A stretch of DNA of 35,369 nt from an uncultured Actinomycetes bacterium (GTDB lineage: Bacteria > Actinomycetota > Geothermincolia > Geothermincolales > RBG-13-55-18): contig CAKZMC010000095.1 in the NCBI GenBank assembly GCA_937128055.1, positions 1 through 35,369 on the forward strand. Reading direction: 5' to 3'. A program made the position numbers and the translations under genes. The notes under the pieces are model-generated. The model saw only the letters and a program-made list of their open reading frames with translations. It made no database searches and had not been told where the DNA came from. This document shows, one piece after another, positions 16,237 through 24,493 of the stretch. Positions within the stretch are counted from its first letter, which is position 1. Each line of letters starts with the position of its first letter.

Positions 16237-17106
16237 TTAGCCCGCGCTCGCCTGATCCCCGGGGGCCGCCACCCCCATATCCTTCAGGATGCGCTGCAGC
16301 TCCTTCTCTCCCTTGAACTCTATGATGATCTTGCCCTTCCTCTTTCCCTGCACCACCCTGACCTTCGCCTGCAGGCTCGCCGCGAGGACCTCCGCGTATC
16401 CTTCCAGGACCCTCGGCTTCTCCTTTTTCCTCTCCTTCTCCCCTTCTTTGTCCAGGCGCTTCCTTACCAGCTCCTCAACCTGCCTCACCGACAGCCCTTC
16501 CTCCACCGTCCTCTGCAGGATCACCGCCTGGTAGGGATCCCCCTGTAAGGCGAGGAGGGCGCGGGCATGTCCGGGGGTGATATCCTCGGCGACGATAGAA
16601 GCCTGAATCTCAACTGGAAGTTGAAGCAGGCGCAGGGAGTTGGCCACCGCCGACCTGCTCTTCCCCACCTTCTGCGAGATCTCCTCCTGTGTAAGGCCGA
16701 AGTCCTCCATCAATTGGCGGTATGCGGTGGCCTCCTCGATGCCGTTGAGGTCATCCCTGTGCAGGTTTTCCACCAGGGCCACCTCAAGGCACTGGGAGGC
16801 TTCCGCCTCCCTGATGACCGCGGGGATGGCTTTTAGCCCCGCCATCTGGGCAGCGCGCCACCTGCGCTCCCCCACGAGCAACTCGTATCCCGTACCCGCC
16901 GGCCGCACGATAACGGGCTGCACCACGCCGTGTTCTTTCAGCGATTCGGCCAGCTCCTCGAGGCTTTCTTCCTTGAACCTTTTCCTCGGTTGCAGGGGGT
17001 TCGGCGAGATGCTGTCCACCGGTATCATCTCCTGGTGCCCCTGCTCCGCAGATACGCTGGAGGTTATCAATGCGCCCAATCCCTTTCCAAGCCCTCTCTT
17101 AGTCAT
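16237..17106 (-). CDS. parB: ParB, chromosome-partitioning CTPase
   Basis: ParB binds parS and slides along DNA as a CTP-dependent clamp, and it works with ParA in origin segregation. The 289-residue protein has the N-terminal GLGKGLGAL ParA-contacting segment, the CTP-binding motifs GERRWRAAQMAG (79-90) and ENLHRDDLN (113-121), a helix-turn-helix (about 139-160) that reads parS, and a basic linker followed by a dimerisation domain. The 5' end overlaps parA by 8 bases. Two perfect parS sites lie about 2 kb upstream. The stop codon abuts the convergent ddl gene. Confidence 0.97.
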   Translation of the reverse strand: MTKRGLGKGLGALITSSVSAEQGHQEMIPVDSISPNPLQPRKRFKEESLEELAESLKEHGVVQPVIVRPAGTGYELLVGERRWRAAQMAGLKAIPAVIREAEASQCLEVALVENLHRDDLNGIEEATAYRQLMEDFGLTQEEISQKVGKSRSAVANSLRLLQLPVEIQASIVAEDITPGHARALLALQGDPYQAVILQRTVEEGLSVRQVEELVRKRLDKEGEKERKKEKPRVLEGYAEVLAASLQAKVRVVQGKRKGKIIIEFKGEKELQRILKDMGVAAPGDQASAG

Positions 17107-17902
17107 GGGATATCACTTCCTTCGCCAACTCGTGATAGGCCGCTGCGCCTCTTGAACGTGGGTCGTACTGGGAGATCGGCTTCCCGTAACTGGGCGCCTC
17201 GCTCAGCCTTACGTTCCTGGGGATCACCGTCTGAAAGGTCTCCTTGGGGTATTGCCTGCGAACCTCCTCCATCACCTGGCGGGATATGTTGGTGCGCGCG
17301 TCGTGCATGGTGAGGAGTATCCCCCCGATGCGAAGGTCAGGGTTAAGGTAGACCTTTATCTTTTCAATGGTCCTGAGCAGGAGGACCAGCCCCTCGAGCG
17401 CGTAATACTCGCACTGTATGGGGATGATGACCTCGTCGGCGGCCGCCAGCGCGTTGACGGTGAGCAGGCCCAGGGAAGGGGGGCAATCTATGAGGATGAT
17501 GTCGTATTCCCCTGTTACCGCCTCCAGGCTCTTCTTCAGCCTGCTTTCCCTGGAAATCTCGGAAACCAGTTCCACCTCCGCGCCCGCCAGCCGCAATGAC
17601 GAGGGGGCGATGTCAAGGCCATCCATCGTCGTGGGCACGATGATCTCTTTAATGGACACCTCCCCTACCAGCACGTCGTATATCTGCTGCCCGTCCAGAT
17701 AAGGCCCGATGCCCAGCCCGCTCGTGGCATTGCTCTGCGGATCGAGGTCGACCACCAGCACTTTCTTGCCTTCCACGGCCAGGTAGGCCCCCAGGTTGAT
17801 AGCGGTCGTGCTTTTCCCTACCCCTCCTTTCTGGTTGGCTACGGCCACCGCCTTCGCGCGGGAGCGATTCTCCTCCCCGGACCTCGGCTCATCACCTTCC
17901 AC
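17099..17902 (-). CDS. parA: ParA, chromosome-partitioning ATPase (Soj type)
   Basis: ParA is a Walker-type ATPase that binds DNA in its ATP dimer form and is stimulated by ParB. The 267-residue protein has the deviant Walker A motif NQKGGVGKSTT (25-32 core) and VVDLDPQSNAT, plus IIIDCPPSLG-like Walker B (ILIDCPPSLGLL) and the C-terminal VRLSEAPSYGKPI motif. The start is GTG 17902, preceded by AGGTGAGGAAAA. A charged N-terminal extension of about 16 residues precedes the P-loop domain. It follows rsmG by 139 bases and overlaps parB. Confidence 0.97.
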   Translation of the reverse strand: MEGDEPRSGEENRSRAKAVAVANQKGGVGKSTTAINLGAYLAVEGKKVLVVDLDPQSNATSGLGIGPYLDGQQIYDVLVGEVSIKEIIVPTTMDGLDIAPSSLRLAGAEVELVSEISRESRLKKSLEAVTGEYDIILIDCPPSLGLLTVNALAAADEVIIPIQCEYYALEGLVLLLRTIEKIKVYLNPDLRIGGILLTMHDARTNISRQVMEEVRRQYPKETFQTVIPRNVRLSEAPSYGKPISQYDPRSRGAAAYHELAKEVISHD

Positions 17903-21429: not shown

Positions 21430-21564
21430 TCAGGCGCTTAAGCGCTTCCTGCCCTTCAGCCTCCTCCTTTTGAGGATAGCTCTTCCGGCACGCGTGCTCA
21501 TCCTCTTGCGGAACCCGTGGTTCTTTTTCCTTTTTCTGGTATTTGGTTGATATGTTCTTTTCAT
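21430..21564 (-). CDS. rpmH: Ribosomal protein bL34
   Basis: The minus strand encodes a 44-residue, very basic protein starting MKRTYQPN and containing [16 protein letters not shown] and [13 protein letters not shown], the universal L34 sequence. ATG 21564 is preceded by GGAGGGAATGAG. The gene is too short for a usual length cutoff and easy to miss. A consensus promoter lies 27-55 bases upstream. It opens the rpmH-rnpA-yidD-yidC-khpB operon. Confidence 0.98.
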
Positions 21565-21824: not shown

Positions 21825-21847
21825 GGTTTATATAAAAGGCCTATCGC

Positions 21848-21856
21848 TGATATAAT
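21848..21856 (+). promoter_or_regulatory. Extended -10 promoter for the GHKL-dnaA operon
   Basis: TGATATAAT is a perfect -10 hexamer with the TGn extension. The -35 region (around 21828) is weak. Transcription would start near 21863 and run through the DnaA-box cluster at 21896-21927, so DnaA binding could regulate it. Confidence 0.55.
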
Positions 21857-21895: not shown

Positions 21896-21927
21896 TTTTC
21901 AACATCTGTGCATAAGGCTGTGGAAAA
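21896..21927. promoter_or_regulatory. DnaA-box cluster upstream of the dnaA operon
   Basis: Three DnaA-box-like 9-mers lie within 32 bases: TTTTCAACA (21896-21904, plus), TTATGCACA (21915-21907, minus; an exact TTATNCACA match) and TTTTCCACA (21927-21919, minus). This placement just downstream of the promoter suits autoregulation of dnaA or one half of a bipartite origin. Confidence 0.65.
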
Positions 21928-22022: not shown

Positions 22023-22862
22023 GTGTCGCACCGCACGCCTGTTTTTCCGCCCTTTTCCGCGGCTTTCAACCATCCTCGTCGTCCGTTTCTCCGCTTTTAC
22101 CGTGTGGTGAAATCGGTGGCCAAAACGGTTAGGGGGGAGCAAAACGAGCAGGGGCTCCTTCCTCCCCATACGCGCCTGGCCTTGCCCGAAAGTGAGGGGT
22201 TCAGCGTCATTGAGTTCCGCGAGCGCGACTTCCCCGCTTTTGCGGAGAAGCTTGTCGGTACCATCCTCGCTTACCTCGAGGAGGCGGGGTGCCCCCTTCC
22301 CCGTATCGCCTTGCGTGAGCTGGTGGACAACCTGGTCCACGCCGTGCCCTGTACCGCTTCCGTCGTCGTAGACCCTTCCCTCAACCGCATTTACATCTCG
22401 GATACCGGCCCCGGCATCTCCCATCCGGAGCAGGCCTTTGAGCTCGGATTTTCCACCGCGAGCGAGCTGCATAGGTCGCTTATCAGGGGAGTAAGTATAG
22501 GTCTTTACCTGGCGCGGGAAGACCTGCGTGCGCTGGGAGGGGATCTCCGCATCACCTCGGAGCGTGGCTCCGGGACCCACATCTGCATCTCCCTGCTCGG
22601 CGGCTTCGGGCCTCCCGCGGAGACGGCCGCCGGGGGGGTACCCGAACTTTCTCCCCGCCAGAACAACATCCTCTTCCTGCTCTCCGAGGGGGTTTTTCTG
22701 GGTCCGACCGGCATATCCCAGGAACTCGGCATCAGCCCCGGTACGGCGTACCGTGAGCTGGTAAGGCTGGAGCGCCTGGGCCTCGTCGCCTGCAAACCAG
22801 ATGGAAAAAGATTCCTTTCAGAAAGTGGCCGAACATACTTGCAGGCGCTTCTGTCACTGTAA
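22023..22862 (+). CDS. GHKL ATPase fused to a C-terminal winged helix, upstream of dnaA
   Basis: This protein of up to 279 residues joins two domains. Residues ~60-195 are a histidine-kinase-type ATPase with the N-box ALRELVDNLVHAV (E99, N103, H106), G1 ISDTGPGIS (126-133) and a G2-like RGVSIGLYLA (155-164) followed by LGGDLRITSERGSG. There is no H-box or dimerisation domain, so it is not a classical kinase. Residues ~209-279 form a helix-turn-helix/winged helix (LSPRQNNILFLLSEG, GISQELGISPGTAYREL). The start is unclear: GTG 22023 gives the longest frame, but GTG 22104 or 22107 is also possible and the first ~55 residues look unconserved. It ends 50 bases before dnaA on the same strand. Nucleotide-gated DNA binding or anti-sigma-like activity is inferred from the domains only. 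Confidence 0.8.
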   Translation: MSHRTPVFPPFSAAFNHPRRPFLRFYRVVKSVAKTVRGEQNEQGLLPPHTRLALPESEGFSVIEFRERDFPAFAEKLVGTILAYLEEAGCPLPRIALRELVDNLVHAVPCTASVVVDPSLNRIYISDTGPGISHPEQAFELGFSTASELHRSLIRGVSIGLYLAREDLRALGGDLRITSERGSGTHICISLLGGFGPPAETAAGGVPELSPRQNNILFLLSEGVFLGPTGISQELGISPGTAYRELVRLERLGLVACKPDGKRFLSESGRTYLQALLSL

Positions 22863-22912
22863 TAGAATAACCCCTGTGATTGTTCGCGTGACCTACCTCG
22901 GGGGATGATCCG

Positions 22913-24274
22913 ATGTCTTCCAAAGACGGCACCATGTGGGAGAAGTGCAAGAAGGTCATCCTCGACAGGGTTCCCGACTCCTTCTCTTTGTGGCTTAAAA
23001 ACGTGCATTTTGAGGGGGTCGATGGAGACACGCTCGTCCTCTACACGAACAATATCTTCACGAAGGAATGGGTGGAAAAAAGATTCCTTAACCTTATACG
23101 TGAGATCGTTACCGAAAGTTTTGACGGCGTAAACGAAGTCAGGTTGGTGTTCAAGGATCGCCGCAAGGGTCCCGGCCGCAAGCCGGTATACCTCGATGTG
23201 AACCTGCTCGAGGAGGACAGCGCGCCGCGTGACCTAAGCCCGAGGTTCACCTTTGAAACCTTCGTCATCGGCGCCAGCAACAGGTTTGCACATGCCGCAG
23301 CACTCTCCGTCTCAGAGAACCCCACGTGCTTCAACCCGCTCTTCATCTACGGGGGGGTGGGGCTGGGAAAGACCCATCTCCTGCATGCCATCGGCCACTA
23401 CACCCGTAGGCTATACCCCAACTTCAAGATAACCTATATAAGCACCGAGAAGTTCGTTAACGACTACATAGAAGCGGTGCGCGACAACAGCTTCCCTTCC
23501 TTTCAGAAGAACTACCGATCGTGCGATGTCCTGCTCGTCGACGACATCCAGATACTGGCGAAGAAGGAGCGTATCCAGGAGGAGTTCTTTCACACCTTCA
23601 ACGATCTCTACAACAATAACAAGCAGATCGTCCTGAGCAGCGACCGCACCCCTAACGAGATTCCCACCCTCGAGGACAGGTTGAAGTCGCGGTTCGGCTG
23701 GGGCTTGATAACTGACATACAACCCCCTGACCTCGAAACGCGCATAGCCATCCTCAAGAAGAAGGCCGCCTTGGACAAGCGCGATGTCCCCGACGACGTC
23801 ATCGAGTATATCGCCTCGAGGTTCGACTCCAACATCAGGGAGCTTGAGGGTGCCCTTATCCGGGTGGTGGCTCATTCCAGCCTGACCAAAGAACCCGTCA
23901 GCCTACAGCAGGCGATCGAGGTCCTGCGGGTCATCCTTCCCGAAAGCGAGGCCAGAATCATCACTATAGACGAGATCATCAAAGTTACCGCCGACTGTTT
24001 CAACATCTCCGTCGAGCAGTTAACAAGCGCCAGCCGCTCCCGAAACCTGGTCACCGCCAGGCAGGTATGCATGTATCTCTGCCGCGAGCTGACGGATGCG
24101 TCGCTGCCCACCATAAGCAGTGCATTGGGGGGGCGCCACCACTCCACAGCCATCCACTCGGTCGAGAAGATAAAGGTGCTCATCGAGGAGAAGCGCGATA
24201 TCTATCACATGGTCCAGAAAATAACCAATCAGTTGAGGCACGGTTTCAACAACCTGTCTGTTGAAAGGATGTGA
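22913..24274 (+). CDS. dnaA: DnaA, replication initiator
   Basis: DnaA binds DnaA boxes at the origin, oligomerises with ATP and melts DNA. The 453-residue protein has the N-terminal helicase-interaction domain (~1-75), a short linker, the AAA+ domain with Walker A GGVGLGKTH (147-155), Walker B VLLVDDIQ, and sensor motifs (LSSDRTP, RLKSRFGWGL). The C-terminal DNA-binding domain carries the signature GRHHSTAIHSVEKI (about 406-420). The linker domain is short compared with mycobacterial or streptomycete DnaA. ATG 22913 is preceded by a weak GGGGGAT site, so coupling to the upstream gene 50 bases away is likely. Confidence 0.98.
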   Translation: MSSKDGTMWEKCKKVILDRVPDSFSLWLKNVHFEGVDGDTLVLYTNNIFTKEWVEKRFLNLIREIVTESFDGVNEVRLVFKDRRKGPGRKPVYLDVNLLEEDSAPRDLSPRFTFETFVIGASNRFAHAAALSVSENPTCFNPLFIYGGVGLGKTHLLHAIGHYTRRLYPNFKITYISTEKFVNDYIEAVRDNSFPSFQKNYRSCDVLLVDDIQILAKKERIQEEFFHTFNDLYNNNKQIVLSSDRTPNEIPTLEDRLKSRFGWGLITDIQPPDLETRIAILKKKAALDKRDVPDDVIEYIASRFDSNIRELEGALIRVVAHSSLTKEPVSLQQAIEVLRVILPESEARIITIDEIIKVTADCFNISVEQLTSASRSRNLVTARQVCMYLCRELTDASLPTISSALGGRHHSTAIHSVEKIKVLIEEKRDIYHMVQKITNQLRHGFNNLSVERM

Positions 24275-24493
24275 ACTCTTGTCTATAAGTCACCGTCTTG
24301 AAAGGAGCCGCGGTTTGTTGCGTGTTTTTTCTCACGGTATGTACTTTTTATCAACAGCTTCTGTCCGCAACACCATGCCCTTCTCCACGTTCTTGGGGCG
24401 TTATCAACATTTTCTACAGGGTATATGATGAAGATGATGAGATTTTAATTATCACTTCGTAGTAGAAAGAGGTATAAAGCAGGAGGTCAAGAG
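24275..24493. other. Probable chromosomal replication origin (oriC) between dnaA and dnaN
   Basis: This 219-base gap holds DnaA-box-like sites TTATCAACA (24348-24356 and 24401-24409), with TTTTCTACA (24410-24418) abutting the second, and a degenerate TTCTCCACG (24381-24389). An AT-rich stretch (about 24421-24460) follows, a likely unwinding element, and TAGTAG occurs at 24460-24465. Genes on either side mostly diverge from here. The boxes depart from the best consensus, so the assignment rests on position plus clustering. Confidence 0.8.

Follow-up and report, generated by a model that had tools for sequence, protein, structure and literature searches.

The window analyzed here is a stretch of 35,369 nucleotides from an uncultured Actinomycetes bacterium, in which an open reading frame on the forward strand (22023-22862) is located between rpmH and dnaA. 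On the one side, rpmH (21430-21564, reverse strand, assigned from its sequence) is oriented divergently, with a perfect TTGACA-17-TATAAT promoter found by promoter scan at 21619-21591 on the same strand. On the other side, dnaA (22913-24274, forward strand) was recognized by the Pfam domains Bac_DnaA, Bac_DnaA_C, and DnaA_N. The same cluster contains dciA (DciA, PF05258; 26778-27056), and a parA/soj-parB pair (16237-17902) is found separately from the gene between rpmH and dnaA, which is called the GHKL-wHTH gene hereafter.

The preliminary description of this locus had this gene start at 22023 and end 50 bases upstream of dnaA on the same strand. The open frame and the 50 bp between its stop codon and the dnaA start were found as described, but the start is probably placed too early. 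Position 22023 begins the longest open frame, whereas translation probably starts at the GTG at 22116 (22116-22862, forward strand, 248 aa) or an alternative GTG at 22107, because close homologues begin there (mostly about 30 residues past the 22023 start, with lengths of 246-250 aa) and a TGA closes the upstream frame in three relatives. In one relative (G005), the entire open frame amounts to 248 aa. Residue numbers such as E68 and R213 refer to the 248-aa version. A different layout is seen in one homologue (L029) with an open frame of 454 aa, where a very long linker rich in Pro, Gly, Gln, and Tyr separates the GHKL domain from the winged-helix domain.

The GHKL (HATPase_c) domain spans residues 64-160 (22305-22595, forward strand) and the C-terminal winged helix residues about 178-247 (22647-22856, forward strand). 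In Pfam scans, HATPase_c (PF02518) was matched with an E-value of 3.7e-12 and 47.1 bits (cut-off 26.4) over residues 95-191 of the frame from 22023, and HTH_5, an ArsR-type winged helix, was matched above its cut-off (E 2.2e-5) over residues 210-255 of that frame. HATPase_c was matched by all 14 aligned family members, and the winged-helix part of other members matches HTH_IclR, TrmB, or MarR. The fusion of the two domains, which had been proposed from the letters alone, is further supported by an AlphaFold2 model (mean pLDDT 83.8) in which both domains are well folded, the linker (163-172) is disordered, and the helices and wing of the winged helix exceed a pLDDT of 90. Within the GHKL domain, the N-box (E68-A76, 22317-22343), G1 (D96-G100, 22401-22415), and G2 (I123-G129, 22482-22502), all on the forward strand, are complete as initially reported: E68, N72, H75, and A76 of the N-box, D96, G98, and G100 of G1, and I123, G125, and G129 of G2 are invariant in 62 aligned homologues. 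By profile and motifs, the protein is assigned to the GHKL ATPase superfamily and presumably binds ATP. In the same alignment, R213 in the recognition helix and R232 in the wing are nearly invariant, as would be expected for residues in contact with DNA. Neither a HisKA nor another phospho-acceptor domain is present among the Pfam or NCBIfam matches above cut-off, in agreement with the earlier observation that a phospho-accepting histidine is missing. No NCBIfam model reaches its cut-off for this protein; the model of the anti-sigma F factor (SpoIIAB) scores 16.4 bits against a cut-off of 135.

Several known protein groups resemble the GHKL-wHTH protein in part. The top Foldseek match among solved structures is DIP2311 of Corynebacterium diphtheriae (3lmm), followed by sensor kinases and PDK4. 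The alignment with DIP2311 comprises 269 columns and spans both the GHKL and the C-terminal winged-helix parts of the query, but with 16% identity and a TM of 0.47 by query. DIP2311-type proteins, which we take to be those of COG2865, combine AlbA_2/Schlafen, HATPase_c_4, and a winged helix and are called predicted transcriptional regulators. In contrast, the GHKL-wHTH protein has only about 60 residues ahead of its ATPase motifs, and Pfam scans detected neither the N-terminal AlbA_2 nor HATPase_c_4. The domain folds are known already, and the pairing of GHKL with a winged helix exists in DIP2311-type proteins. Sensor histidine kinases (WalK/YycG, HK853, KinB) are similar in the G1/G2 ATP-lid region and in fold but possess HisKA and sensor domains, both of which are lacking here, where a winged helix is present. 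The N-box differs as well, with E-x3-N-x2-H-A in the GHKL-wHTH family compared with the N-x3-N-A form in histidine kinases. GyrB and MutL use a Glu four residues ahead of the N-box Asn as their catalytic base, and SpoIIAB and pyruvate dehydrogenase kinases carry Glu at this position as well. In histidine kinases the position is usually taken by Asn, which is also found in the one histidine kinase of the genome under study that aligns over this stretch (L006). Judged by E68, the N-box is of the GyrB/MutL or SpoIIAB/PDK type, a likeness that extends to RsbT and BCKDK. Profile matches of the protein likewise include MutL, SpoIIAB, PDK4, and BCKDK; nevertheless, it carries a winged helix in place of the transducer (S5) domain of GHL ATPases and of an anti-sigma or PDK regulatory domain. 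YabA, SirA, Soj, DnaD, Hda, and DiaA act on DnaA or oriC, as is proposed below for the GHKL-wHTH protein, but to our knowledge none of them is a GHKL ATPase or a fixed dnaA-upstream gene. In the open-access literature, no description of a dnaA-linked GHKL-wHTH family was found, which is consistent with the first impression that no characterized protein has this architecture at this place.

The gene was found in 24 of 59 relatives and, where the locus was reached, adjoins dnaA and/or rnpA. In a sample of 297 Actinomycetota genomes (the phylum label was taken from locus names, for example, L034 and L036), 123 carry a family member at E<1e-50, that is, 128 matches less 5 at kinase level only. The gene is almost always single copy, and a sharp score gap separates members (E<1e-50) from ordinary kinases (about 1e-13). 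It is missing from the majority of the sampled Actinomycetota genomes and is present in 38 of the 43 genomes of a second phylum; G309 (labelled Bacillota) and G310 (labelled Armatimonadetes CSP1-3) draw on this one group of 43 genomes, which presumably represents the CSP1-3 phylum. A scan of 84,980 species genomes yielded 322 relatives, the best 80 of which comprise Actinomycetota (Coriobacteriia, Slackia, Hakubella, Humimicrobium, and others) and MAGs labelled Armatimonadetes, Bacillota, and UBP13. The order rpmH-gene-dnaA, with the gene on the dnaA strand, is seen in all 80 of these best loci wherever the contig reaches. The sole variation among them is an Eggerthellaceae MAG (L109), in which the gene and dnaA, lying between rpmH and dnaN, have been inverted together. 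A separate positional check, for which a subset of 80 family members was used, found the gene and dnaA adjacent and codirectional in 69 of 77 genomes; the remaining eight are six circular contigs opened at dnaA and two contig breaks, leaving no true exception among the 75 testable genomes. In 98 loci, a median of 19 bp separates the gene from dnaA. Since this gap is often only 5-20 bp in lineages other than that of the window, co-transcription with dnaA would be the natural expectation there.

The preliminary description had suggested that conserved linkage to dnaA across Actinobacteria would speak for a replication role, and scattered contexts or a known family with an unrelated role against it. 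Neither of the latter was seen, and the linkage is strongly positive and reaches beyond one phylum. As a feature of Actinobacteria it needs qualification, however: the linkage is conserved in carriers, but the family is not confined to this phylum and is missing from most of its sampled genomes. The fixed linkage expected of a regulator of the DnaA locus is present, and as the gene stands beside dnaA in every checkable genome, it is a strong candidate for the control of DnaA or the replication origin. A mobile-element or defence-system origin was rejected because no homologues were found in plasmid, phage, and IMG/VR collections and PADLOC and PHROGs gave weak single-domain matches only.

Both the promoter and the DnaA-box cluster that had been noticed ahead of the gene are present. 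The promoter scan gave TTTATA-18-TATAAT at 21827-21856 on the forward strand, and 40-71 bp downstream of its TATAAT (21851-21856) follows a triple DnaA-box array, TTTTCAACA-N2-TGTGCATAA-N3-TGTGGAAAA, at 21896-21927 (forward strand; boxes forward, reverse, reverse). In most relatives of the window's family, the array is preceded by a TATAAT-like -10 element. Across 105 loci, the interval between rpmH and the gene contains 266 DnaA boxes compared with 5.3 expected, and most loci agree with the array consensus TTWTCMACA-N2-TGTKGAWAA-N3-TGTKGAWAA at 21-26 of 27 positions, where shuffled sequences mostly reach 13-18. The triple array lies on the opposite strand in many CSP1-3 loci. The spacing of 2 and 3 bp, conserved in Actinomycetota and CSP1-3, suggests a defined DnaA complex, and with this precise array upstream, the gene appears to sit inside a DnaA-controlled dnaA unit. 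Important to note here is the control with dnaA loci without the gene, most of which have the triple array upstream of dnaA too. The array therefore offers no evidence for a binding site of the GHKL-wHTH protein and is better attributed to the control of dnaA or to the origin. The gene would either have come to lie between this region and dnaA or have been there ancestrally; the notion that the array is specific to the gene or the winged helix's own site is not supported. No other conserved operator palindrome was found upstream in three groups, where only rpmH or own-promoter elements and leftover DnaA boxes were seen.

A second promoter, TTGCAG-18-TAGAAT (22839-22868, forward strand), is predicted close to dnaA and overlaps the last codons and the stop of the GHKL-wHTH gene. 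Across 12 genomes of the window's family, the DNA sequence itself is conserved through these last codons and past the stop, as TACTTGC(A/G)...CTRTAATAGAAT. Leu is encoded there by TTG in 12 of 12 genomes compared with 12% elsewhere in the gene, and each of 61 other conserved degenerate codons varies. We infer that the conserved 3' end of the gene serves as a dnaA promoter in the window's family, a reading that fits its retention in a congener (G001, locus L114) after loss of the gene. With a promoter of its own, dnaA would not depend solely on the upstream promoter in this family.

This congener, whose DnaA is 87% identical, has kept dnaA while the GHKL-wHTH gene is deleted: homology with the window breaks off upstream of the gene and returns at 22797, so that about the last 65 bases of the gene are left, and a short matching stretch also covers the DnaA-box array. 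Such a natural deletion in a dnaA-keeping congener provides a ready comparison. Because the gene was lost there and is absent from most sampled Actinomycetota, it is dispensable rather than essential in general, and because dnaA was not lost with it, the protein is at most a modulator. Where the gene is present, pairs from six groups of close relatives gave a dN/dS of about 0.08-0.23 (about 0.03-0.08 for dnaA), which shows that the protein is maintained by purifying selection. Furthermore, for 98 loci, the tree of the gene resembles that of DnaA more closely than expected by chance (patristic r 0.52, at most 0.20 after permutation), and the 22 CSP1-3 sequences are monophyletic in both (support 0.999). 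The gene and dnaA are co-inherited.

Taken together, we favor, with a probability of roughly 0.5, an ATP-gated DNA-binding accessory regulator of the dnaA locus or origin that would link nucleotide state to dnaA transcription or initiation. In this model, the GHKL domain would bind ATP and probably hydrolyze it slowly, and the nucleotide state would set the conformation or dimerization of the protein. The C-terminal winged helix would then bind DNA at the dnaA/origin region, and the bound protein may adjust dnaA transcription or initiation in either direction. Given the location of the gene downstream of the DnaA-box array of the dnaA unit, production of the protein is probably under the control of DnaA, as is that of DnaA itself, which would close a feedback loop. 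The replication role first put forward is thus favored by the linkage, but it is weakened by an array that is shared with gene-less dnaA loci and by the loss of the gene in a congener that kept dnaA. Also at odds with the model are its absence from most sampled Actinomycetota genomes, the separate dnaA promoter predicted in the window's family, the lack of a conserved operator for the winged helix besides DnaA boxes and promoter elements, and the fact that winged helices can also mediate protein-protein contacts.

In a possible but rather unlikely alternative, the protein is not a transcription factor but an initiation cofactor that acts positively or negatively on DnaA-origin complexes, with its winged helix in contact with origin DNA or with DnaA itself. 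The linkage would then reflect a protein partnership, for which the absolute association with dnaA, the co-inheritance, the lack of a conserved transcriptional operator, and the neighboring DnaA-box array would speak; against it, DnaA works without the protein in many relatives, and DciA, the gene of which lies in the same cluster, probably serves as the helicase loader, making a loader function of the protein unlikely. If, instead, the resemblance to BCKDK/PDK4 and SpoIIAB in profile and fold matches and the invariant Glu were taken at face value, the protein could be a serine/threonine kinase of the SpoIIAB/RsbT/PDK kind that phosphorylates DnaA or a partner and is brought to the origin by its winged helix. 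We consider this less probable still, as this Glu also serves GyrB/MutL as the ATPase base, the best profile matches are generally HATPase_c of histidine kinases, and no partner-switch genes (STAS/anti-anti-sigma) were noticed beside the gene.

A passenger that regulates unrelated targets and stays beside dnaA only through the stable gene order around the origin would suit both the dispensability of the gene and the high conservation of the yidC-yidD-rnpA-rpmH/dnaA-dnaN neighborhood itself. It is nonetheless improbable, slightly more so than the kinase, in view of the complete lack of unlinked members (80 scanned loci and 75 testable genomes in at least two phyla), the inversion of gene and dnaA as a unit in L109, the short spacing, the position behind the DnaA-box array, and the lack of mobile copies. 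Finally, HATPase_c without HisKA and profile matches to sensor kinases might point to a non-functional remnant of a two-component sensor kinase, but ATP-site residues that are invariant across phyla, an N-box unlike that of histidine kinases, and the low dN/dS largely refute such decay and leave it hardly credible.

Initiation control is well understood in few model bacteria only. A dnaA-adjoining gene shared by CSP1-3 and deep-branching Actinomycetota (Slackia and other Coriobacteriia among them) is a testable candidate for a missing regulator. At about even odds, the family represents an undescribed class of DnaA/origin regulator, in which a GHKL-fold rather than AAA+ ATPase is joined to a winged helix, depends on the ATP state, stands under DnaA feedback, and is common to several deep lineages and lost in others. 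If so, nucleotide state would feed into initiation via a second ATPase fold besides that of the AAA+ protein DnaA.

Two minor observations concern other parts of the window. The dnaA-dnaN intergenic region (24275-24493) contains TTATCAACA boxes and a GATGAAGATGATGAGAT run and may be an origin unwinding region. An archease gene (PF01951; 31603-32076) directly follows gyrA.
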